From Humibacillus xanthopallidus (GTDB lineage Bacteria > Actinomycetota > Actinomycetes > Actinomycetales > Dermatophilaceae), in assembly GCF_006716675.1 (NCBI RefSeq), contig NZ_VFPM01000001.1:744001-808000 (forward strand): a stretch of 64,000 nucleotides of DNA, given 5' to 3'. Position numbers and translations under genes: made by a program. Positions 1 through 13,024 of this stretch are shown here, in pieces. The number at the start of each line of letters is the position of its first letter. Within the stretch, counting starts at the first letter, position 1. The notes under the pieces were generated by a model. It ran no database searches and was not told the DNA's origin. It was given only the letters and a program-made list of their open reading frames with translations.

Positions 1-1
1 G

Positions 2-1174
2 GTCGTGTTCTGGGACGAGTTCGACTCGCGGGAGTACCTCTGGCTGCAGTACCTCCTCGCGCCCATGCAGGACGGCGCGTTCCAGGAGGGACAGATCACG
101 CACCCGATCGGCAAGTGCGTCTTCGTCTTCGCCGGGGGGACCAGCCACGACTTCGCGAACTTCTCGCCGCGCGAGGAGTCCTCGTCGCGGGTCGCCGGCG
201 TCGCCGCACGCAGCGGCCTCACGAGACAGGAGAAGTTCCGCCTCGCCAAGGGTCCCGACTTCGTGAGCCGGTTGAGCGGCTACCTCAACGTCGCCGGCCC
301 CAACCGCCGGCAGCGCTACGACGCCCTCATCGGCTCCTGGGTCGACGACGACGCGCCCCCGGACATCTCCTTCCCCGTGCGCCGCGCGCTCCTCATGCGG
401 GCGACCGGCGGCTTCGTCGGCGCCGCCGAGAACGCGGAGATGGACATCGACAGCGGCCTGCTCAGCGCCTTCCTCGAGATCGGTCGCTACGAGCATGGCG
501 CGCGGTCACTCGAGACGATCATGAAGCTGACGCGGAGCGGCGGGCAGGCCGGAATCCGCCGCTCTGCACTGCCTCCCGAGGACCAGCTGTCGCTGCACGT
601 CGACGCCGACGAGTTCATGGGGCTCGTCGACCTCGACCTCCCGTTCAAGATGCACAGCGAGGAGCTCGCACCAGCCGTGCACGGCTTCTACCGCCAGGCG
701 GTCGAGGGCGAGTCCGTCCCCTACGACGTGGCGTTCGAGGCACTGCCTGACGGTGCGAAGGCCGACAACGTGGCGGCCGCCGCCCGCATCCCCCGGGTGC
801 TCGCCCTCGTCGGGCTCGTCATCGTGAGCCAGGACCACCCGTCGACCGCGCAGGAGGACCTCGTGGCGAGGCTCATCGAGAGCAACATCGAGCTGCTGGC
901 CGAAGCCGAGCACGACGGGTGGATGGAGCAGAAGTACCGCGACGGGTGGTCACACGGCTCCACCCGCGACGACGACGCCAAGACCCATCCCTGCCTCGTC
1001 CGCTACGCGATCCTCAGCGAGCAGGACAAGGACAAGGACCGGGGCGCCGTGCGCCACTACCCCGACATCGTCACGTCGTCGGGCCACAAGATCGTCGAGG
1101 CCGGCTGCGCGACAATGACCCCCGCGCAGCGCGCCAACACCGCTCTCCCCCAGCACCGGCCCGCCCGACGATGA
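2..1174 (+). CDS. AAA+-like ATPase with C-terminal RyR domain (5' truncated)
   Basis: The gene enters the window already inside its ATPase domain: the first residues, VVFWDEFDS, look like a Walker B strand (hydrophobic residues then DE), and CVFVFAGGTS about 40 residues later looks like sensor 1. The Walker A motif must lie upstream of the window. Residues ~289-365 of the visible part match the RyR domain (PF02026) pattern: a helix with AEHDGWMEQK, then DGWSHGSTRDDDAKTHPCLVRY and a closing basic/acidic helix. Bacterial RyR domains are thought to bind nucleotide-derived ligands and occur in predicted conflict systems (known from comparative genomics). The stop overlaps the ATG of the SLOG gene (ATGA), so the two are probably translationally coupled. 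The role as ligand-gated ATPase is inferred; the true start is outside the window. Confidence 0.75.
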   Translation, partial: VVFWDEFDSREYLWLQYLLAPMQDGAFQEGQITHPIGKCVFVFAGGTSHDFANFSPREESSSRVAGVAARSGLTRQEKFRLAKGPDFVSRLSGYLNVAGPNRRQRYDALIGSWVDDDAPPDISFPVRRALLMRATGGFVGAAENAEMDIDSGLLSAFLEIGRYEHGARSLETIMKLTRSGGQAGIRRSALPPEDQLSLHVDADEFMGLVDLDLPFKMHSEELAPAVHGFYRQAVEGESVPYDVAFEALPDGAKADNVAAAARIPRVLALVGLVIVSQDHPSTAQEDLVARLIESNIELLAEAEHDGWMEQKYRDGWSHGSTRDDDAKTHPCLVRYAILSEQDKDKDRGAVRHYPDIVTSSGHKIVEAGCATMTPAQRANTALPQHRPARR

Positions 1175-1689
1175 GACCCGAGCGCGTGGTCCGCGTCGGC
1201 GTGACCGGGCACCGCACGATCCGCGACCCCGAGCGGGTGGCGAGGCGGGTGCGGGACGGGCTGCACGGCATACTGCGGCTGACGGACGCCGGGGACGGTG
1301 CCGGCCCCGCACGGCTCGAGATCGTGGCAGCGCTCGCCGAGGGCGCCGACCGCCTCGTCGCCCGTGAGGCTCTCGCCCTGCCGGGCACGACGCTCGCCGC
1401 CGTCCTGCCCTTCCCCGCCGACGACGAGGGCGACGTCGAGACCCCCGAGGCCCGCGCGGGGCTCGCCGACCTGCTCGAGCGGGCCCACACCGTGGAGGTG
1501 ATGCCCACGACCACGACCCGCGAGGCCGGCTACGCCCTCCAGGGCCGCTGGGTCGTCGACCACAGCGACGTGCTCGTCGCCGTGTGGGACGGCGAGCGGT
1601 CGCGCGGGCAGGGCGGCACGGCCGAGATCGTCGCGTATGCCGCCGATCGCGGGGTCCTGCTCCTCTGGGTGCGGGCGAGCCGCGCCTGA
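1171..1689 (+). CDS. SLOG-superfamily Rossmann protein
   Basis: 172 residues from the ATG that overlaps the preceding stop. The N-terminus has the GVTGHR glycine-rich loop of SLOG (SMF/DprA-LOG-like) Rossmannoids; mid-protein EIVAALAEGADRLVA and the C-terminal HSDVLVAVWDGERSRGQGGTAEIVAYA resemble the nucleotide/sugar-binding loops of that family. SLOG domains bind or process nucleotides and NAD-like molecules, and in conflict loci are proposed to make or sense a nucleotide signal (family knowledge). Its coupling to an ATPase carrying an RyR domain suggests a signal-generator/sensor pair (inference). It is convergent with the 117-residue gene across a 33-nt gap. No transmembrane segment or signal peptide is visible. 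Confidence 0.75.
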   Translation: MRPERVVRVGVTGHRTIRDPERVARRVRDGLHGILRLTDAGDGAGPARLEIVAALAEGADRLVAREALALPGTTLAAVLPFPADDEGDVETPEARAGLADLLERAHTVEVMPTTTTREAGYALQGRWVVDHSDVLVAVWDGERSRGQGGTAEIVAYAADRGVLLLWVRASRA

Positions 1690-1722: not shown

Positions 1723-2076
1723 TCACCAGGAGCCGACGAGGCCCAGCCCCCGGTCGGCGCAGAGGCGAAAGAACCTCCCGAGCTCGACGACCTCGAAGGG
1801 CGAGCAGTCGTAACGCCCCTCGGCCGAGGAGGCGACCACGACGGGGTCGCACTGCTCCAGCTGGGCAGCCATGCGCCGCACCACCTCCGGGGGGATCCAC
1901 TCCCGGAAGAGCGAGACCCCGGTGACGTCCTCGACGAGACCGGCATAGACCTTGCCGCGGAAGGACGTGTCGCCCTCGCACTCGCAGAGCAGCACCTTCG
2001 CCCGGTCGAAGGCGTCACGGTCCGCCTCGGTGAGCGCGATGTCCGGTGTCCGGCCGGCCAGGGTGTCGAGTCCCAT
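1723..2076 (-). CDS. Small protein coupled to the DUF4062-NACHT-WD40 gene
   Basis: 117 residues, beginning MGLDTLAGRTPDIALTEADR. I do not recognise the family. The predicted content is mixed alpha/beta with one Cys pair (LLCECEG) and a Trp at the C-terminus, and no membrane segment. The ATG shares its A with the stop of the 1829-residue gene (TGATG), so it is probably translated by re-initiation and works with that protein. A longer reading upstream in the same frame would run into the neighbour's coding sequence and is not preferred. It could be an adaptor, inhibitor or effector of the STAND-like protein; nothing in the sequence decides between these. Confidence 0.6.
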   Translation of the reverse strand: MGLDTLAGRTPDIALTEADRDAFDRAKVLLCECEGDTSFRGKVYAGLVEDVTGVSLFREWIPPEVVRRMAAQLEQCDPVVVASSAEGRYDCSPFEVVELGRFFRLCADRGLGLVGSW

Positions 2077-5000: not shown

Positions 5001-7565
5001 GCTCTCGAGGTCCCAGACGCGCACGCTGCGGTCGGTCGTGCCGGCCGCGGCCCAGCGCCTGTCCGGTGAGAAGGCCACGGCTCGCACCGGCGAGAACGTG
5101 CCTCGGAGGATGCGGGTCAGCTCACCACCCGGTGGGGTGAGGCTCGCCGTGAGCGGGCAGAGCCAGGCACCGTCCGACCGCTGCGCGAGGCTGCGGACGA
5201 GCTCCGCCAGGTGCGGGTCCGACACCGTCAGCAACCGCCCGACGAGCTGGCCGGCGAGCTGTGCGGGGTCGCGCGTCACGGCGGTCATCGAGAGCAGGAG
5301 CGCCTCACGCAGGACGGCCAGGGTCGCAGCCTGGGGGGAGGCAGGGTCGCACCGCCGGGCCACCTCGTCGATGTCCTCCACGAGCGTCGACGGGCCCGTC
5401 TCGCCGACCTTGGCGCTGACGAAGTCTCCGTCGGTCAGCAGGGTGACGGCCTCTGCGCCCCGGCCGGCCCTGGCCAGCTGGAACGCCAGCTCGGCGAGCA
5501 CCCGGGGAGCGAGGCCCGCGGGGCCGAGCCGGACGGCGTCGAAGTAGTCGGCCAGTTGCGCGTGCCGGGCCTGCTCGCGCTCACCGGAGAGGAAGACGCG
5601 CTCGGCCGCGTCGGCCAGCTCGCGGTGGAAGAAGCCGATCGTCACCGTGCCGTCCGCGGTGCGTGCCGTGAGGTAGGCCTCGAGGTCGGCGAAGAGCCGC
5701 GACCACACGACCACCGGCAGCCGGTCGACGTGCGGGGAGTGCGGCGACCGCCGGGCGAAGTCGGCCATCACTTCGGCGTCACCCGAGAGCAGGTCGAGCA
5801 GCTCGTCCTCCGTCAGTCCGTCGCGAGAGGCGGCCAGCAGGCCGAGAGCGCGCTCGACGAGCACTGCGCCATGGTTCTCCTCACGCCCGAGTCGCGCGAA
5901 CAGCTGCTCGATGAGCCGGGGCACGTCGCCCGCGACCGGCTCGGGAGCGAGCCAGGACGGCCACAGCCGGGCCTCCTGCGTCGCGAGCCGCAGGTGCAGC
6001 GGCATACCGCGGGCCTCCTCGAAGGCCGACAGCACTGCGGCCGCCTGCGGCGGCGTCAGGGTGCGGCCCTCGGCGACGAGCCAGTCCTGCAGCAGGGCCG
6101 CCCCGTCGTCGGCGGAGAGTCCGGGCACCTCGAGGAGCGCGTCCCCGCCGAGTCGCTGGCGGAGCAGGTCGAGCTCCGGGCCGGGCCGGGTGGACACGGC
6201 CACCCAGACGTTGGGCGGCAGGACGGTGGGCAGCCAGGTCAGCCGGCGAGCCGCATCGTGACGGGGCAGCTGGTCGAGACCGTCGACGAGCAGGACGAGC
6301 GGCTTCGCCTGGGTGGCCCGGCCGAGCTGGGCGGAGAACCCGCTGAAGAGGTCGTTCTCGTCCCCGGGGGCAGGGGCGTCGACGCCGTACTCCTCCCCGA
6401 GCTCCGCCCAGATGTCACGGAGCAGCTCGCCACCGACCGACGACGCCGGCGTCGCGCCGATGAAGCGCGTGACGACGACGGCCTCCGGGCGCTGCGCGAC
6501 AGACTGTCGGGAGACCTCGGCGAGGACCGCCGACTTGCCGCTTCCCGGTGCGCCCCAGAGGACGAGCGGTCGCCAGGGCTCGTCGGCCCGTCGGGCGGCC
6601 ACCCGGGCCAGGACGTCGTCGCGTCCCCGCAGGTCAGCGGCGCGGTCCTCTCCGAACCCCGCGTGCGCCGCCCGCTCTGCCACGACCGGGTCGAGGGCCT
6701 CGACCCGGTCGAGCTCGGCACCGATCACCGCGGCCAGGGCGGCATACACCTCCTCGTTGAGAGCGGCGAGGTGCTCGCGGGTCGGGGCTCCGTCCACCCA
6801 GCGCGCAACGTAGGTGCGCACCCCGTCGCCGAGCTGCTCCGTGAGGCGCCTGCGCAGGTCGGTGAGGTCGGCAGCTGCCTGACTGTCGCGGTGCCCGTCG
6901 ACGACGTCGACGTAGGGGGCGGCGTCGTCGGACAGACCGTCGATCGTGCGCAGGAACGCGAAGGCGCCCAGGGCCGCATCACCCTGCAGCAGCCCGGCCG
7001 AGATCTCCTGCTCCGTGGCGGAGGGCTGTGGGCCGAGCGAGGCGTCGAGCACCGCTCGGAGGCCCGTCTCCTCGCAACCCCAGGCCGCGGGGTCGCGGAA
7101 CTCGCCCTCGCGCGGCTGGAGCACGGCGACGGGAGGAAGGGCGTTCTCGTCGACCCGGTACCACCTGCGCACGAGGGTCGCGCCCTGCGCGTCCGCCGCG
7201 GCCACGCGCTGCACCTGCTGCCACTCGTCCTGTGAGAGCTCGTAGGGCAGCGGACGCCAGCCGTAGCGATCACCAAGCAGCGCAAGGAAACTCGGCCGCG
7301 GGCTGAGCCGCCGACAGCGCTCCACCTCGGCCAGGCACAGCGCCATCGTCCGCTGGTCGAGCGCGGCCTCCTCGCTCACGCCCCAGCGCAGGTCGACGGC
7401 CTGGAAGCGCGCACCGCGCGACGCGCACAGCCGGCGGAGTCTCGAGAAGGCGCCCTCGACGAGGCCGTCCGGACCCTCCACACCCCGCTGCAGCGCATCG
7501 CGCTCCGCCACGAGGTCGTCGAAGGTCGAACTGACGAACACCCTGAAGCTCTGTGCGCCGGGCAT
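2076..7565 (-). CDS. DUF4062 - NACHT-like NTPase - WD40 - TerB-like giant protein
   Basis: 1829 residues from the ATG at 7565, chosen because DUF4062 begins straight after it; a GTG at 7619 would add 18 unconserved residues. Residues ~7-90 are DUF4062 (FRVFVSSTFDDLVAERDAL, later ALLGDRYGWRPLP), the domain found in TEP1/NWD1-type proteins. A P-loop NTPase follows, with Walker A GAPGSGKS near 340 and Walker B LVLLVDGLDQL near 425, then an alpha-helical linker. Residues ~815-1665 hold about fifteen WD40-type blades (repeated SPDG..V..W D/N motifs). The C-terminal ~150 residues (VAAADGTVQDAEVEQF) resemble TerB. The layout is that of a STAND sensor: WD40 for recognition, NACHT for oligomerisation, and DUF4062 as probable effector or adaptor (inference). 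The stop overlaps the 117-residue gene. Confidence 0.85.
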   Translation of the reverse strand: MPGAQSFRVFVSSTFDDLVAERDALQRGVEGPDGLVEGAFSRLRRLCASRGARFQAVDLRWGVSEEAALDQRTMALCLAEVERCRRLSPRPSFLALLGDRYGWRPLPYELSQDEWQQVQRVAAADAQGATLVRRWYRVDENALPPVAVLQPREGEFRDPAAWGCEETGLRAVLDASLGPQPSATEQEISAGLLQGDAALGAFAFLRTIDGLSDDAAPYVDVVDGHRDSQAAADLTDLRRRLTEQLGDGVRTYVARWVDGAPTREHLAALNEEVYAALAAVIGAELDRVEALDPVVAERAAHAGFGEDRAADLRGRDDVLARVAARRADEPWRPLVLWGAPGSGKSAVLAEVSRQSVAQRPEAVVVTRFIGATPASSVGGELLRDIWAELGEEYGVDAPAPGDENDLFSGFSAQLGRATQAKPLVLLVDGLDQLPRHDAARRLTWLPTVLPPNVWVAVSTRPGPELDLLRQRLGGDALLEVPGLSADDGAALLQDWLVAEGRTLTPPQAAAVLSAFEEARGMPLHLRLATQEARLWPSWLAPEPVAGDVPRLIEQLFARLGREENHGAVLVERALGLLAASRDGLTEDELLDLLSGDAEVMADFARRSPHSPHVDRLPVVVWSRLFADLEAYLTARTADGTVTIGFFHRELADAAERVFLSGEREQARHAQLADYFDAVRLGPAGLAPRVLAELAFQLARAGRGAEAVTLLTDGDFVSAKVGETGPSTLVEDIDEVARRCDPASPQAATLAVLREALLLSMTAVTRDPAQLAGQLVGRLLTVSDPHLAELVRSLAQRSDGAWLCPLTASLTPPGGELTRILRGTFSPVRAVAFSPDRRWAAAGTTDRSVRVWDLESGLEVVAFEGGRPSGSFAEGAGGDTISALAFAGDDVLAASADRCVYRIDRRTGVGSMVVRGETDNLYAVSLDPEAGTLAAAPRDIWGIGARSVQCWSLSDGRSGPELEGALSGAAATSDLIALSSDGRVAVTWGRSAPLVRWDLVGGRAASSEQVSGVTSLALSSDALMTAVGKADGTIEVRPAPEISTPLTTLTGHVGAVRAIVLLAPDRLVSAGDDGSIRLWDLTVGREVRRLLGHGTAVLSIAATPDGLRVLSGAQDGSVHVWDLGKHPLAVSTPAPPRHTAAVTAVAVGDDGTVAVSVGADGSVLRWDLLAGRGVGATPERSSPGELAVRTPGDADLLALAARLDEQAPRSSVDATHEVVTTAVSRDGSRALTSSTDSILVFYRLNVTRDESRVRLWDLGTGRRLRVLSHDVESSMSNRRAQTVRCLALDARGRVGVGGGDDHRLRVWDLETFEVVAELDLDSRVTACDLAPDGLTLVAGEASGRVHLLRIERPPRPTRPDGPDGLGPVERESAVRAHVQERGWDAVYAADRPRRTMLQTQHPWVEAVAVSPDGERGLTAGSDGAVVSWNLVDGRSQTLAEPGAEWATAAAWSADGTHVAAASADGRVRVWGVGSHQLVTETEVPAGMVCLTAARGRAWLVGDSTGGVTLWEPGGARPQRVAVHAGAVTGVAQLGGSAVGSVSTAGTVAVHGAQSGRVAWCSEPGDPAWVVGVVAGDLCVARGTALETWDVMTGRLRWSLDTGHRCVITALAVLPDEALVMTASTDGEVRLVDVEAGVERGLLRRLGWSVNALAAHPDGVTVLVGGHSDTLQLVVTTDPVLEEDATLRARFTDAEWDQVRRLPGVLWSFVAAADGTVQDAEVEQFTLSNERRSALTSSAERLAARLVDEHDPATAPTASGPLPDPALVRQDDELGHCRAILRRRLDDAEYAELVAVLLGSARDVAAACGTFLRPKVSREEQAALTTLEGRL

Positions 7566-7784
7566 ACCCCATCGTCTCGCCGCCAGCGGTTCCGGAGCCG
7601 GTTCTTGGACCCAGATCACGTTTCCCGGCCCGCTCGCCTCGGCGGGTCTCGCGGAAAGAGCTGCCGGCGCCCGGAAGGTAAAGAAAGGACAAGTCGCCGC
7701 GGGGGCTCGAGAGACGGTGAGAGGCTGACGTCGAGGGCCTTGGGGGCCACCGGCACGGCGAGTCGCTTCGGGGAGAGGTCGCTT

Positions 7785-10700
7785 ATGTCCGAGTCAGCTG
7801 CGTCGACGGGGACGCGCCGTTCGACCGAGCACCAGGACGTCCATTTCGACCTCAGCTTCCTCGGGGACGAGCACCGCACCGCCGACTACACGCTGCGGTC
7901 CGCCGGGCGCTCCTACCCGCTCGCACGGCATACGGCGGAGTCGCTGGCCGACGCCGGGCTCGACGGAGACGTCGGGATCGGGACCACGCCACCGACCCAC
8001 GTCGCCCGGGCCGTGGAGGCGCCCACCGCCGTCGTCGGCCTGAGCCGGGTGCTCGGACCACCGGACGGGAACGGCTTCCCGACCCTCGCGGCCATGGCCG
8101 TCTCCACTCCCGGCGACGGCGGCCGCTACTCCCTCGACGACGTGGCCCGTGCCGTCGTCTTCCTCAACCCGAGCGTCTCGGTGCTCACGCCCGGCACGGC
8201 CGGCACGGTGCTCGGCCACATCGGGTCAGCGCACCACCTGCCGGAGCTGCAGCTCGCCATCAAGGCGATGGGCACCCACTGGAACGACCCAGTGCCGATG
8301 GTCGACGACACGGGCCACCCGGTGCTCGGCCCCGACGGCAAGCAGTACTTCACCTATGAGCTTGCGCCGATGGTGGCGAACTCCGCCGTGTCCGTGGGCG
8401 GCCAGTCCAAGGCCGCGATCTACAGCGACGACGCCCTGCAGGGCGCACGCTGGCACCTCGACCCCGGTGTCAGCCACGTCGACGTCAGCCAGCCCACACG
8501 GCAGGGCGAGGACACAGCGACCGGCGAGCAAGGCTCCCCCACAAGGGCGCTCGTGGCTGCCAACGCCTCCGGCTACCACGTGAGCCTCGCCGACGGTGGC
8601 CCCAACTACGGCCTTGCCGTCACCGTCAACGGTCTGAGCGACGACTTCGTCCTCGACCTCACGGTGACGAACAGCTACCTGCGCCACACCTCGCTCTTCG
8701 TCAGCTTCCTCCACGGCGACGGCAAGACGCCCATCGTCGTCGACGACAACATCTGGACCGAGCTCATCAAGGGAGCGATGAAGCCGGTCGTCGAGGCGTG
8801 GCTGCGGCTCGGCATCGACCCGGGCTTCGGCCAGGCGCTGCTCGACCTCATCGAGAGCCGCGACAACACCCTGAAGTTCGCCGGTCTGTTGGGTGCCGAG
8901 AGCACCTTCCTCGGCATCCCCGTCTCGCAGGCGGAGAAGAACCTCACCTTCTCGCTCCCCCGTGACGGCGGGCCGGTCGGGCGGATCCGGCTGCTCGTCG
9001 GCAGCCTCGGCACGCCGTCGGGCAACGAGTGGGACCCCATGGCCGCCTGGCTCGGCATCGCGATGACGTCCGTCATCGACCTCGCGATCCCGACGTACGC
9101 GCTCATCTCGACGGCCGGGGAGGAGAGCGACACCCTCTTCGACTCGATCTTCAAGAACGTCCCCTTCCTCGCCGGCCTGGCCCTCGACGTCTACACCATC
9201 GGCAAGGACATCTTCACCGGAGACGCCAACACCGGCGCCGACCTCAAGGACGCGCTCATCTCGCTGTCGAGCTCGCTCGTCACCAAGGTCCTCACCGCCT
9301 CCGACGTCGCCGCCCAGCTCGCCCTCTACTTCGGCGCCGAGGAGGCCGAGGAGGCCATCCCCTACGTCGGCTGGGCACTCAAGGCGCTTGCGATGGAGGC
9401 CGCCGTCGAGCAGCTCGCCCAGACCATCGGTGAGGTCATCTCCTCCCCGCGGGTCGTCGAGTTCGACCTGACCGTGACGATGAACGCCGTCATCACCCTG
9501 ACCCCGGCGGACGTCAACGGTCACCCGGGCGAGTTCCCCTCCACCGCAACGACCGTCGCCGTCACGGCCCAGTTCAGCGACAGCACGACCCGAACCTGGA
9601 CCGGCCCCGTGGACGTCACGAACCGGTCCTCGCTGACGATCCACTGGGACGACGTGCCGGTCGGCGGCACCGTCACCTTCGTCGTCGCGATGTTCTCCGC
9701 AGAGGGCTGGGGCGTCGGCAAGGGCCAGTCCGCATCCGTGGCCAACGAGATCAACGACAAGGATGCTGGAGTCCTGTCTGTCAGCATCGCGGTGGCGCAG
9801 CAGCTCTATCCGCTGAGTGCCGACACCAGCTACGGCCACCACGCGGTGCTGACACACACCGAGGGCACCGGCTACGCGTGGAAGGAGACCGCTCAGGCAC
9901 CGACCGAGACGGCCGAGAGCCTCGGCAGCGGGCCGAGCGGGCACGTGCTCGAGGCGTTGGGTGCCATCACCCTGAGCGACGACCTCGGCATCATCGGCTA
10001 CGGCTGGGAGGCATCAGGCCTCGGCATCCCGCCGGTCGACGCCGATGGCCCCGACACCGAGCTCGACACGATGCAGAACATCGGCTTCCGCCCCGTCGCC
10101 GGCGACAGCAGCCCGACGTGGCCGCAGGCGGGTTACATGACGGCACCCGCCGGCTACTCCAAGGCGCCCCTGCTGCTCTACCTCCGGAGCGCAAGCGAGG
10201 GTGGCCCGGAGCTCGCCGGGCCCGGCCTGTTCTTCCTCGACCCGTCAGGTGACGCCAAGGGCGGCTTCCACCTGCGGAAGGTCACGGCTGTCACAAGCGC
10301 CGACGTGCCGATGGACGACCCCACGCGCCGCTTCGACCTCGCGACGGGCACGAGCTGGGGGCGCTTCGCCAGCCTGCCGACCTCGCTCGCCATCCACACG
10401 AACGGCTACGTCGTCGGAGTCAACCCCGCCGCCGACAACATGCAGATCCTGCGCTTGTCATCCGCGGGCGTCCCTGACGCACAAGCACCTTGGGCCTGTA
10501 TGCCGTTGGGCCCGGGCACCGGCCCAGGGCGCCTGGGTGGCCCCGCCCTCACCTGCATCCGGCCCGACCAGACGATCCTCGTGCTCGAGGCGGGCAACCG
10601 GCGCATCCAGGCATTCAGTCGCGGAGGCCACCCGGTCGCGGCCTTCCCGACGACGCCGACGCCCTACTGGATCCCGCTCGTGTCGCACGCGCCGGAGGGG

Positions 10701-11015
10701 ACGGACGTCGTCCACCTCTCGATGAGCTCTGACGTGGCGGGGTACCTCTACGTCCTCAGCCAGAACGGCAACGGCTACGACCCGTCGGACTTCCACCTCG
10801 ACGTCTACGCGCCGACGGGAGCCCATCTCATGCACCAGGAAGGACTCGTCGCAGGCGGGCTCGCGGTCGACCTCTGGCGCAACGTCTACACCCTGAACTT
10901 CCAGCAGATCGCCGGGCCCGGTGGTCGCACCGAGCCCTCGCTCAGCGAGTACCTCCCCCACACCCCCCACACCCCCACCCAAGGACCCGTGCAGGCCGAG
11001 GAGACACGCCCATGA
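7785..11015 (+). CDS. Large protein with hydrophobic helices and NHL-like C-terminus
   Basis: 1076 residues from the ATG at 7785, which has GGAGAGG about 8 nt upstream; in-frame starts upstream lie in the divergent promoter region. There is no signal peptide. The N-terminal third is soluble-looking beta-rich sequence. Residues ~415-475 (WLGIAMTSVIDLAIPTYALI and VPFLAGLALDVYTIG) and ~527-545 are hydrophobic helices that could insert into a membrane or pack in a helical core. Residues ~920-960 contain an NHL-type repeat (DQTILVLEAGNRRIQAFSRGG), suggesting a beta-propeller. The stop overlaps the next ATG (ATGA). I do not recognise a family. Position next to the STAND-like gene suggests a companion, perhaps an effector or a cell-surface target, but this is inference. 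Confidence 0.7.
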   Translation: MSESAASTGTRRSTEHQDVHFDLSFLGDEHRTADYTLRSAGRSYPLARHTAESLADAGLDGDVGIGTTPPTHVARAVEAPTAVVGLSRVLGPPDGNGFPTLAAMAVSTPGDGGRYSLDDVARAVVFLNPSVSVLTPGTAGTVLGHIGSAHHLPELQLAIKAMGTHWNDPVPMVDDTGHPVLGPDGKQYFTYELAPMVANSAVSVGGQSKAAIYSDDALQGARWHLDPGVSHVDVSQPTRQGEDTATGEQGSPTRALVAANASGYHVSLADGGPNYGLAVTVNGLSDDFVLDLTVTNSYLRHTSLFVSFLHGDGKTPIVVDDNIWTELIKGAMKPVVEAWLRLGIDPGFGQALLDLIESRDNTLKFAGLLGAESTFLGIPVSQAEKNLTFSLPRDGGPVGRIRLLVGSLGTPSGNEWDPMAAWLGIAMTSVIDLAIPTYALISTAGEESDTLFDSIFKNVPFLAGLALDVYTIGKDIFTGDANTGADLKDALISLSSSLVTKVLTASDVAAQLALYFGAEEAEEAIPYVGWALKALAMEAAVEQLAQTIGEVISSPRVVEFDLTVTMNAVITLTPADVNGHPGEFPSTATTVAVTAQFSDSTTRTWTGPVDVTNRSSLTIHWDDVPVGGTVTFVVAMFSAEGWGVGKGQSASVANEINDKDAGVLSVSIAVAQQLYPLSADTSYGHHAVLTHTEGTGYAWKETAQAPTETAESLGSGPSGHVLEALGAITLSDDLGIIGYGWEASGLGIPPVDADGPDTELDTMQNIGFRPVAGDSSPTWPQAGYMTAPAGYSKAPLLLYLRSASEGGPELAGPGLFFLDPSGDAKGGFHLRKVTAVTSADVPMDDPTRRFDLATGTSWGRFASLPTSLAIHTNGYVVGVNPAADNMQILRLSSAGVPDAQAPWACMPLGPGTGPGRLGGPALTCIRPDQTILVLEAGNRRIQAFSRGGHPVAAFPTTPTPYWIPLVSHAPEGTDVVHLSMSSDVAGYLYVLSQNGNGYDPSDFHLDVYAPTGAHLMHQEGLVAGGLAVDLWRNVYTLNFQQIAGPGGRTEPSLSEYLPHTPHTPTQGPVQAEETRP

Positions 11016-13024
11016 ACGCGATCACGACCTGGCAGCTCTCCGTCGACGGCGTCGGGTGGGTGCAGCTCGAGTCGTCCGAGTTCCGTTATGCCGGAGGTCT
11101 CGTCGTCGCCGTCTTCGACGGGAGCGGCACCGGCTGGACGGTCTTCGACCTCGGCGGCAGCCAGGTGGCCTTCGGCGCCGGCACCCAGGACCAGGACGGC
11201 AACAACTACTCGTACTACTGGAACTCCCACTACGCGACCACCGACAGCCAGGGCAACGTCGGGGGCATGATGCTGTGGCTCGGCTACAACCCGGGGTTCT
11301 CCTCCGACACCGTCGGCCCCGAGCAGACCTTCCGCATCGCCAACCTCGGCCAGGGTCGGGTCTCGCTGCAGGCGACTGCTGGATCCTTCCCGGGGCAGTA
11401 CCTCTCGGGGGTCCAAGGCGGTTGGTACCCGGAGCAGTGGGGACTGGGCAACGGCAGCTTCGTCTCGTCGACGAGTCCCACTGCGATCCGCATCAGCGGC
11501 GACCTGCTGCCGCTCCTGCAGATCACGAACTCGGCCTACGACACCGATCTGTCCGGACGTGACCTCGGCGCGATCTCCCTCGCCAGCGCCAACCTGCAGC
11601 TGAGCAACCTCTCCGGGGCCACCCTGACGGCTGTCACCTCGATCGCCGGCGCCGACTTCACCTCGGCCACGCTGCACGGCGTGCACCTCGGCGCGCACGA
11701 CCTCGCCACGGCGAAGACCTGGGCGCATGCCGACTTCACAGGCTCCGACCTCACGACGATCGCCGGCGCCGCGTCGGCGCACCTCGAGGGGGCCGTCCTC
11801 GACACCACGAACCTCACCGGACGCAACCTGCGCGGCGCCTTCCTCCAGGGCAGCTCGCTCAAGGGCGCGGTCCTCACCGGTGCCGACCTCACCGGGGCTC
11901 ATCTCGACGGGGCAGACCTCACCGGCGCCCACCTCGGCGGCACGATCCTGCACGGCGCCACTCTCGCGGGCACCCGCTTCGACGGCGTCGACCTCAGCAC
12001 GGCGCAGTTCGACCCCGCCCCACAGTTCACCCGCGCGGCGACGTCCCGCACGACCTTCGTCGGTGCCACCGTGCCCTTCGCGGTGCTGGGCGCCAACTGG
12101 TCGTTCCTCGACCTCACGAGTGCCACCATCACCGGGATCCCCAGTGCCATCAGCACGCTCGTGGCCGACCATGCTCTGCTCCCCACCGGCCTCAGCCTCG
12201 AGAAGGTCGACCTCACCGGTGCCTCCTTCGTGGGCACCCGGATGTACGAGATCCAGCTGCAGGGTGCGAACCTCGAGGGTGCCACCCTGACGAACGCGCT
12301 GCTCAGGGGAGCCAAGCTGAGCGGCGCCAACCTCACCCTCGCCAACCTCGACAGCGCCTTCCTCATCGCCGAGACGGCCGACGTCGCGAGGGCCCTCGCC
12401 GTGCGCACGGGCGCGGGAGGCAGGCTCCCGGTCCGCGCCGAGGCCCGCCGGCCGGGCCCGGTCGAGCAGGACAAGCTCGAGGCTGCCGTCGTGACCGATG
12501 CGTTCCTCGTCAACACCATCCTCGACGGTGCCCACTGCGACGGCGTCGACTTCTCCGGGTCGCTCTTCGTCACCTCGGCGGCCGTCAGCGGCAGCCAGTC
12601 AGCGAGCGCCGTCGGGGCGTCGATGAACTTCACGAAGTTCGACGGGGCCAGCGTCGTGCTCGCCGTCTTCAACGGCGCCCAGCTGTCTGCGGCGTCGTTC
12701 GCCACAGCCGACCTCACCGGGGCACGGTTCCTCGACAACGGGACGACCCCCACCCAGCTCACGCCGTCGAGCGACACGACCCACACCCCCGCGAGCGTCT
12801 ACGAGGCCCATCTCGAGGGCGCCGACTTCACCGGGGCGAACATGGACGGCCTCGACATGCGCGGTGCGACCGTCGCGACGGCGAACGGAGTGTTCGAGAA
12901 GATCTACGACGGGTTCGCCGGTGCCAAGATCCCCGTCGCGTTCGACTACGACCCGACCCGGCTCGGCACGACGACGAGCGGCACCACGTGCCCCAACGGC
13001 TCGAACGGACCCTGCACGCTGTAG
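11012..13024 (+). CDS. Pentapeptide-repeat protein with N-terminal beta domain
   Basis: 670 codons giving 669-670 residues, start ATG in the ATGA overlap with the preceding gene. Residues 1-165 form an aromatic, glycine-rich beta domain with no signal peptide (WQLSVDGVGWVQL...). From ~179 to ~626 it is built of A(D/N)LxGA pentapeptides (ADLTGAHLDGADLTGAHLGG), which fold as a right-handed quadrilateral beta-helix. The helix is broken by a proline/arginine-rich loop near residues 458-490. A Cys pair sits at the extreme C-terminus (TTCPNGSNGPCTL). Pentapeptide proteins act as DNA mimics, scaffolds or secreted-protein parts; none of these is established here. The coupled translation implies a complex with the 1076-residue protein. 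Confidence 0.8.
   Translation: MNAITTWQLSVDGVGWVQLESSEFRYAGGLVVAVFDGSGTGWTVFDLGGSQVAFGAGTQDQDGNNYSYYWNSHYATTDSQGNVGGMMLWLGYNPGFSSDTVGPEQTFRIANLGQGRVSLQATAGSFPGQYLSGVQGGWYPEQWGLGNGSFVSSTSPTAIRISGDLLPLLQITNSAYDTDLSGRDLGAISLASANLQLSNLSGATLTAVTSIAGADFTSATLHGVHLGAHDLATAKTWAHADFTGSDLTTIAGAASAHLEGAVLDTTNLTGRNLRGAFLQGSSLKGAVLTGADLTGAHLDGADLTGAHLGGTILHGATLAGTRFDGVDLSTAQFDPAPQFTRAATSRTTFVGATVPFAVLGANWSFLDLTSATITGIPSAISTLVADHALLPTGLSLEKVDLTGASFVGTRMYEIQLQGANLEGATLTNALLRGAKLSGANLTLANLDSAFLIAETADVARALAVRTGAGGRLPVRAEARRPGPVEQDKLEAAVVTDAFLVNTILDGAHCDGVDFSGSLFVTSAAVSGSQSASAVGASMNFTKFDGASVVLAVFNGAQLSAASFATADLTGARFLDNGTTPTQLTPSSDTTHTPASVYEAHLEGADFTGANMDGLDMRGATVATANGVFEKIYDGFAGAKIPVAFDYDPTRLGTTTSGTTCPNGSNGPCTL

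Follow-up and report, generated by a model that had tools for sequence, protein, structure and literature searches.

Thoeris, which consists of the TIR protein ThsB and the SIR2–SLOG protein ThsA, is one of the described systems closest to the cassette analysed here, a run of TIR, ATPase and SLOG genes in Humibacillus xanthopallidus. TIR and SLOG-fold proteins are co-encoded in both systems, and the SLOG fold of the cassette matches that of ThsA. However, the SLOG protein of the cassette is a free 172-aa YpsA-like domain, a RyR–AAA+ ATPase is present in addition, and the ThsB matches are weak and lie over the TIR domain. Pfam and PADLOC scans of the operon for a ThsA effector found neither a SIR2 nor a Macro domain, and identity with Thoeris was rejected for lack of ThsA. 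The MoxR–vWA ternary systems (PF20030) share with the cassette a related AAA+ core and nearby WD40 proteins but differ in their above-cut-off PF20030 match and in their vWA partner. The bpMoxR match of the ATPase to PF20030 stays under the cut-off (E=1.8e-4, 21.1 versus 27 bits), a scan of five proteins of the window locus gave zero vWA matches, and this identity was rejected as well because no match rises above the cut-off. In PADLOC, no system matches the ATPase outside the P-loop.

Nucleotide-centric conflict systems with SLOG, TIR, SLATT and LSDAT domains were reportedly described by Burroughs et al. in 2015 (NAR; cited in PMC7159879); the cassette resembles them in its domain vocabulary and in its scheme of proteins that make nucleotides, sense them, and act as effectors. 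A published description of the cassette itself was not found in the literature searched, a comparison that did not extend to Burroughs et al. 2015, and the cassette probably represents an immune-type signalling system that has been little described. The Repeat12 of the animal ryanodine receptor has its RyR repeats in tandem as well, with a like fold and ligand pocket; it is part of a calcium channel, whereas the RyR repeats here are carried by a predicted soluble AAA+ protein.

The phage protein RyDEP (mycobacteriophage DyoEdafos gp78) binds and cleaves 2'/3'cADPR via H75, W78, H100, and D117, with H75 and D117 as the catalytic residues (PMC13232231). Only DyoEdafos RyDEP cleaved; the other tested homologs, highly conserved as they are, did not, and six of eight bound (PMC13232231). 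That phage RyR proteins bind or cleave cADPR signals made by TIR became known only in 2026, the bioRxiv study being of May of that year (PMC13232231). RyDEP and the phage RyR-domain sponges share with the cassette a PF02026 domain with equivalents of the four residues at identical spacing. In contrast to RyDEP, which is a free-standing phage counter-defence protein, the cassette RyR is encoded by a host gene, occurs in tandem, and belongs to a PfkB–AAA+ protein that has TIR and SLOG genes of its own alongside.

Architecture of the TIR–ATPase–SLOG operon

The window, the whole analysed stretch of 64,000 nucleotides (G000:C1:744001-808000), starts inside the ATPase gene, and its positions 2-1174 are the 3' portion of a single open frame as judged by frame and translation. 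The window with 10000 flank is referred to as L002. TIR–ATPase–SLOG is a tight three-gene operon (Table 1): the TIR gene ends 7 bases before the ATPase start, and an ATGA at 1171-1174 is the overlap of the ATPase stop and the SLOG start. Because the window boundary cuts this operon, it was out of sight for the reader of the window who wrote the earlier note. No sigma-70 promoter was found, in a search from which little would be expected in a high-GC actinobacterium.

Table 1. Coordinates, strand and supporting evidence of the features at the H. xanthopallidus locus; negative positions lie upstream of the window
Feature	Window position	L002 position	Strand	Evidence
TIR–TM gene, 391 aa	-2768..-1593	7232-8407	+	Pfam TIR_2 E=1.7e-20
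Complete ATPase gene, 919 aa	-1585..1174	8415-11174	+	Open frame, translation
3' part of PfkB-like–AAA+–RyR–RyR ATPase gene	1..1174		+	Ortholog model (92% identical), pLDDT 89.3
Walker B FWDEFD	8..25		+	D-E-F-D invariant in 66/66 relatives
AAA+ sensor-2-like HGAR motif	494..505		+	G and R invariant in 66 relatives
First RyR repeat, degenerate	647..835		+	Family RyR HMM E=6.6e-10
Second RyR repeat, intact; H833 (911-913), W836, H858, D875	869..1102		+	PF02026 E=2.8e-14
SLOG-fold protein, 172 aa	1171..1689		+	AF2 model pLDDT 92.6; Foldseek
117-aa ORF without any family	1723-2076		-	
DUF4062–NACHT-type ATPase–WD40 protein, ~1830 aa	2076..7619		-	DUF4062 E=1.5e-11; AAA_16 and WD40 matches

The ATPase is composed, from N to C terminus, of a PfkB/ribokinase-fold domain, an intact AAA+ core, and tandem RyR repeats. 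Its structure was modelled with AlphaFold on the 92%-identical H. xanthopallidus ortholog, using a 66-row alignment (pTM 0.89). Residues 1 to ~400 match no named family in Pfam, NCBIfam, or PADLOC. In the ortholog model, residues 13-384 adopt a PfkB/ribokinase fold, with HldA as the top Foldseek match and pseudouridine kinase 7c1z superposing at a Z of 20.8 and an rmsd of 4.5 over 287 aligned residues. The assignment rests on the model and on fold comparison; hhalign of this domain to six PfkB kinases encoded in its genome reaches only 0.7% probability. With the GAGD position aligned by means of the motif and an hhalign match that is weak, the catalytic Asp appears as Ser in 47 of 66 sequences and as Thr in 10, and Asp is absent from the residues listed. 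Because of this replacement, the domain is apparently a pseudokinase, whose remaining role is probably just to bind a nucleoside or sugar-nucleotide.

The AAA+ core is matched by PF00004 at residues 472-538 with 22.8 bits, barely above the cut-off of 21.2. Despite this marginal score, the core is clear from the conservation of Walker A and Walker B and from the model: Walker A (GPPGSGKS), which sits upstream of the window, is near-invariant across 66 relatives, and all features of AAA+ membership, namely Walker A, Walker B, and the sensor 2 Arg, occur in the 66 sequences. By analogy with AAA+ proteins, the HGAR motif would act as sensor 2. Profile and structure matches liken the core to remodellers of the MoxR/ClpX type.

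The TIR protein features a single hydrophobic segment, placed by eye at roughly residues 161-184, and ends in a domain that is unnamed in every profile library scanned. It matches ThsB_TIR at E=2.4e-5 and carries the catalytic NADase Glu (Glu75), which is kept in 53 of 54 aligned TIR segments; judged by its sequence, it is likely an NAD+-cleaving enzyme.

The SLOG gene is unnamed in Pfam, NCBIfam, and PADLOC, and its match to the nearest SLOG Pfam model, the YpsA family PF06908, is below cut-off (E=0.35, 11.3 versus 27.7 bits). In Foldseek, the predicted structure resembles B. subtilis YpsA (TM 0.73, E=1.8e-8) and also matches ShosA, DprA, LOG, and the BcThsA SLOG–3'cADPR complex (prob 1.00). 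The motifs GVTGHR, AEGADR, and GGTAE are conserved. On the model, the 172-aa protein is a SLOG protein by fold that lies outside the PF06908 family. The earlier note had described an AAA+-like ATPase coupled via ATGA to a SLOG Rossmann protein: Walker motif conservation and the model bear out the ATPase, the overlap bears out the coupling, and the SLOG assignment holds by the AlphaFold model but not by the profile.

Tandem RyR repeats and their ligand residues

The C-terminal RyR domain that had been read from the window is confirmed by PF02026 at residues 821-891 (53.6 bits versus a cut-off of 27.4), but where a single repeat had been seen there are actually two, the first being degenerate. 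The same arrangement with a degenerate first repeat is found in 74 of 79 ATPase relatives. A whole-genome search identified this RyR as the only one in its own genome (E=4.7e-15), and none was found in a genome search of 14 control genomes. The RyR profile matches solved chains of RyR1-3 and of B. thetaiotaomicron RyR down to E=3.7e-39, and Foldseek pairs the ATPase C terminus with human RyR3 R12 and with a Bacteroides/human chimera. Among these fold matches are structures of human RyR3 R12 that contain ATP or AMP-PCP.

The spacing of H833, W836, H858, and D875 (+3, +25, +17) is identical to that of the RyDEP residues H75, W78, H100, and D117. The mapping uses the published residue numbers and the spacing in place of a direct alignment, because tblastn of the RyR domain against phages gave no matches. 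Conservation in the relatives amounts to 65/66 for H833, 64/66 for W836, 58/66 for H858, and 64/66 for D875.

Recurrence of the cassette and its possible readings

One scan of genome contigs yielded at least 453 ATPase relatives, and neighbourhoods were analysed for the best 80 of these, many of them on short contigs. The best 80 of 453 are distributed over Planctomycetota, Chloroflexota, Chlorobi, Verrucomicrobia, Acidobacteria, delta- and alphaproteobacteria, Bacteroidota, Armatimonadetes, Actinomycetota, and one archaeon; viral contigs contain one distant partial relative. The occurrence is patchy, with three full-length copies, that of the own genome included, among 58 genomes of relatives, as would be expected if the system is mobile or serves in conflict. 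A Methylobacterium plasmid carries one copy, adjoining a SIR2 gene and transposases.

Around 79 ATPases, SLOG accounts for 22 of the 172 genes that lie no more than 1 kb away and for 0 of 189 at 5-9 kb (Fisher p=4e-8), and TIR 24 of 172 versus 6 of 189 (p=2e-4), with genes counted as independent and the 79 ATPases drawn from the best-scoring relatives. TIR is a common domain, and TIR genes may still be somewhat over-represented at 5-9 kb. Clustering the 66 aligned ATPases at 50% identity gives 25 clusters, of which 15 have TIR, 9 have SLOG, and 5 have both at one locus. Of the 32 loci flanked by 5 kb or more on either side, 19 have TIR, 13 SLOG, and 24 one or both; the eight loci with neither count against the favoured explanation, as does a 70%-identical ATPase (L067) that has neither nearby. 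The missing PADLOC match outside the P-loop is a further point against it. At five loci (L097, L105, L108, L115, L137), SLOG is fused directly after the second RyR repeat. Chance co-location was rejected in view of the distance gradient, the fusions, and the recurrence across phyla.

All 22 ATPase genomes searched have one SLOG match each, always at the ATPase. Across 251 Chloroflexota genomes, the SLOG profile has 22 matches spread over 20 genomes, whereas only 2 genomes contain the ATPase. The earlier note had named SLOG occurring mostly without the ATPase as speaking against the pairing, and this is the pattern in Chloroflexota, but both ATPases there are SLOG-adjacent and the five fusions stand beside them. 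SLOG thus appears as a promiscuous module that has the ATPase as a specific partner in some cases only; the pairing of SLOG with the ATPase does exist and recurs, and neither partner is obligate. TIR, ATPase, and SLOG genes also occur together in Intrasporangium and Humibacillus. At the locus of the 92%-identical H. xanthopallidus ortholog, TIR and ATPase are separated by two genes, a WD40 gene and a HEAT-repeat-like gene on the opposite strand (L052:8488-10954), which also counts against the favoured explanation. A genome of another actinobacterial class (G338) has the order SLOG–ATPase (without RyR)–ClpC-like–TIR.

The reading to which a probability of roughly 0.58 is given is that of an NAD+-derivative immune or conflict-type cassette, in which a TIR-made ADP-ribose-type signal is read by RyR, and probably by SLOG, and gates the AAA+ motor. 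Once triggered, the membrane-anchored TIR protein would cleave NAD+ to ADP-ribose or a cyclic ADP-ribose compound; the tandem RyR module, of the Repeat12 type, would bind this product and switch the motor; and SLOG, positioned beside RyR, would bind or trim this nucleotide or a relative of it. The domain composition, the gene order, the conservation of ligand, catalytic, and ATPase residues, and the recurring linkage and fusions are observed; we infer the compound bound, the direction of control (the ligand switching the motor or the motor controlling TIR), and an anti-phage or cell-arrest output. Animal R12 binds ATP and adenine nucleotides as well, and the RyR ligand therefore need not be the TIR product. 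Outside support for binding of an ADP-ribose compound by RyR comes from the phage RyR proteins that bind or cleave 2'/3'cADPR (PMC13232231).

An off switch, with RyR as a RyDEP-like hydrolase that destroys the TIR-made signal to guard against false alarms and the ATPase and SLOG as its regulators, is considered unlikely. Counterparts of the catalytic H75 and D117 persist in 64-65 of the 66 ATPases, Nudix hydrolases lie nearby, and the D117 position is Asn in 6 of 13 TrkA-channel–RyR neighbours, as would fit a split into cleaving and merely binding versions. However, the conserved dyad is not proof of catalysis, since conserved phage homologs bound without cleaving (PMC13232231), and there is no obvious reason for a hydrolase to come with an AAA+ motor and a SLOG domain. 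The ATPase could also be a nucleotide-gated chaperone or remodeller that has no link to NAD, its RyR reading the ATP/ADP level and TIR and SLOG being passengers of a defence island. The RyR3 R12 structures with ATP or AMP-PCP, the likeness of the core to MoxR/ClpX-type remodellers, and the quarter of fully flanked loci without TIR and SLOG agree with this; set against the steep SLOG distance gradient, the direct RyR–SLOG fusions, and the NAD- and nucleotide-themed neighbours throughout, it is judged quite improbable.

Ligand production and sensing in one operon, as proposed in the earlier note, is still the best reading, but the producer is likely the upstream TIR protein, and SLOG looks like a second sensor. 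That SLOG itself makes the ligand for RyR, with TIR incidental, is very improbable: LOG-type SLOG relatives release bases from nucleotides, the GGT-x-E motif is conserved, and SLOG can be fused directly to RyR, but the operon also encodes a TIR protein with a proven NADase fold and an intact Glu, TIR partners the ATPase more often (19 versus 13 of 32 loci), and ThsA, the closest characterised signal-binding SLOG, is a sensor.

A widespread host RyR family paired with TIR, SLOG, and sometimes a RyR channel is a tractable setting for asking whether RyR domains are native receptors of cADPR isomers. The cassette could reveal what the RyR domain of the muscle channel originally sensed and is possibly a new immune pathway. 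The cADPR sensitivity of animal RyR has long been disputed. It is a tentative idea, with the odds somewhat against it, that the bacterial tandem RyR modules of the ATPases and TrkA-channel–RyR proteins form an as yet undescribed class of host immune receptors for TIR-made cyclic ADP-ribose from which animal Repeat12 descends.

Further neighbours of the ATPases

DUF4062–NACHT–WD40/TPR proteins recur near the ATPases, and the DUF4062–NACHT–WD40 gene of the present locus perhaps belongs to the island. As a fourth cassette member it was rejected: DUF4062-type proteins are recurrent (24 within 80 neighbourhoods), yet their distance gradient is weak. This gene and the 117-aa ORF are both retained next to the cassette in H. 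xanthopallidus and are missing at the Intrasporangium oryzae locus. Two genes upstream of the SLOG-fused ATPase of L137, a 1760-aa protein features TIR and DUF4062 (L137:3336-8618).

SLOG–SLATT membrane proteins, Nudix and SIR2 proteins, a sirtuin-like gene at L135 (by eye), and the TrkA–RyR and RelA_SpoT–LSDAT–RyR proteins speak of nucleotide or NAD+ chemistry. TrkA–RyR proteins beside the ATPase (L096:7771-9504, L116:3426-5228, L123:5509-7332, L137:8615-10474, and others) have, as read by eye, a pair of TM segments with a pore-like loop, to which TrkA_N domains and tandem RyR repeats are joined, and look like RyR-gated prokaryotic channels. RelA_SpoT–LSDAT–RyR genes adjoin the ATPase at L073:8757-11294, L085:12906-15440, L094:7641-10259, and L104:15260-17761; their products of ~850 aa are built from a RelA/SpoT synthetase-like domain, a TPR-like middle, an LSDAT (TRPM-type SLOG) domain, and two RyR repeats. 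Stand-alone host RyR proteins of 94-99 aa, which by eye resemble the RyR of animals and of Bacteroides, lie beside the ATPase at L098:2497-2781, L120:10055-10345, and L133:1061-1360. An odd fusion of 739 aa near one ATPase (L093:8037-10256) joins a TIR-like N terminus (by eye) to a phosphofructokinase domain (PF00365, E=8e-47).
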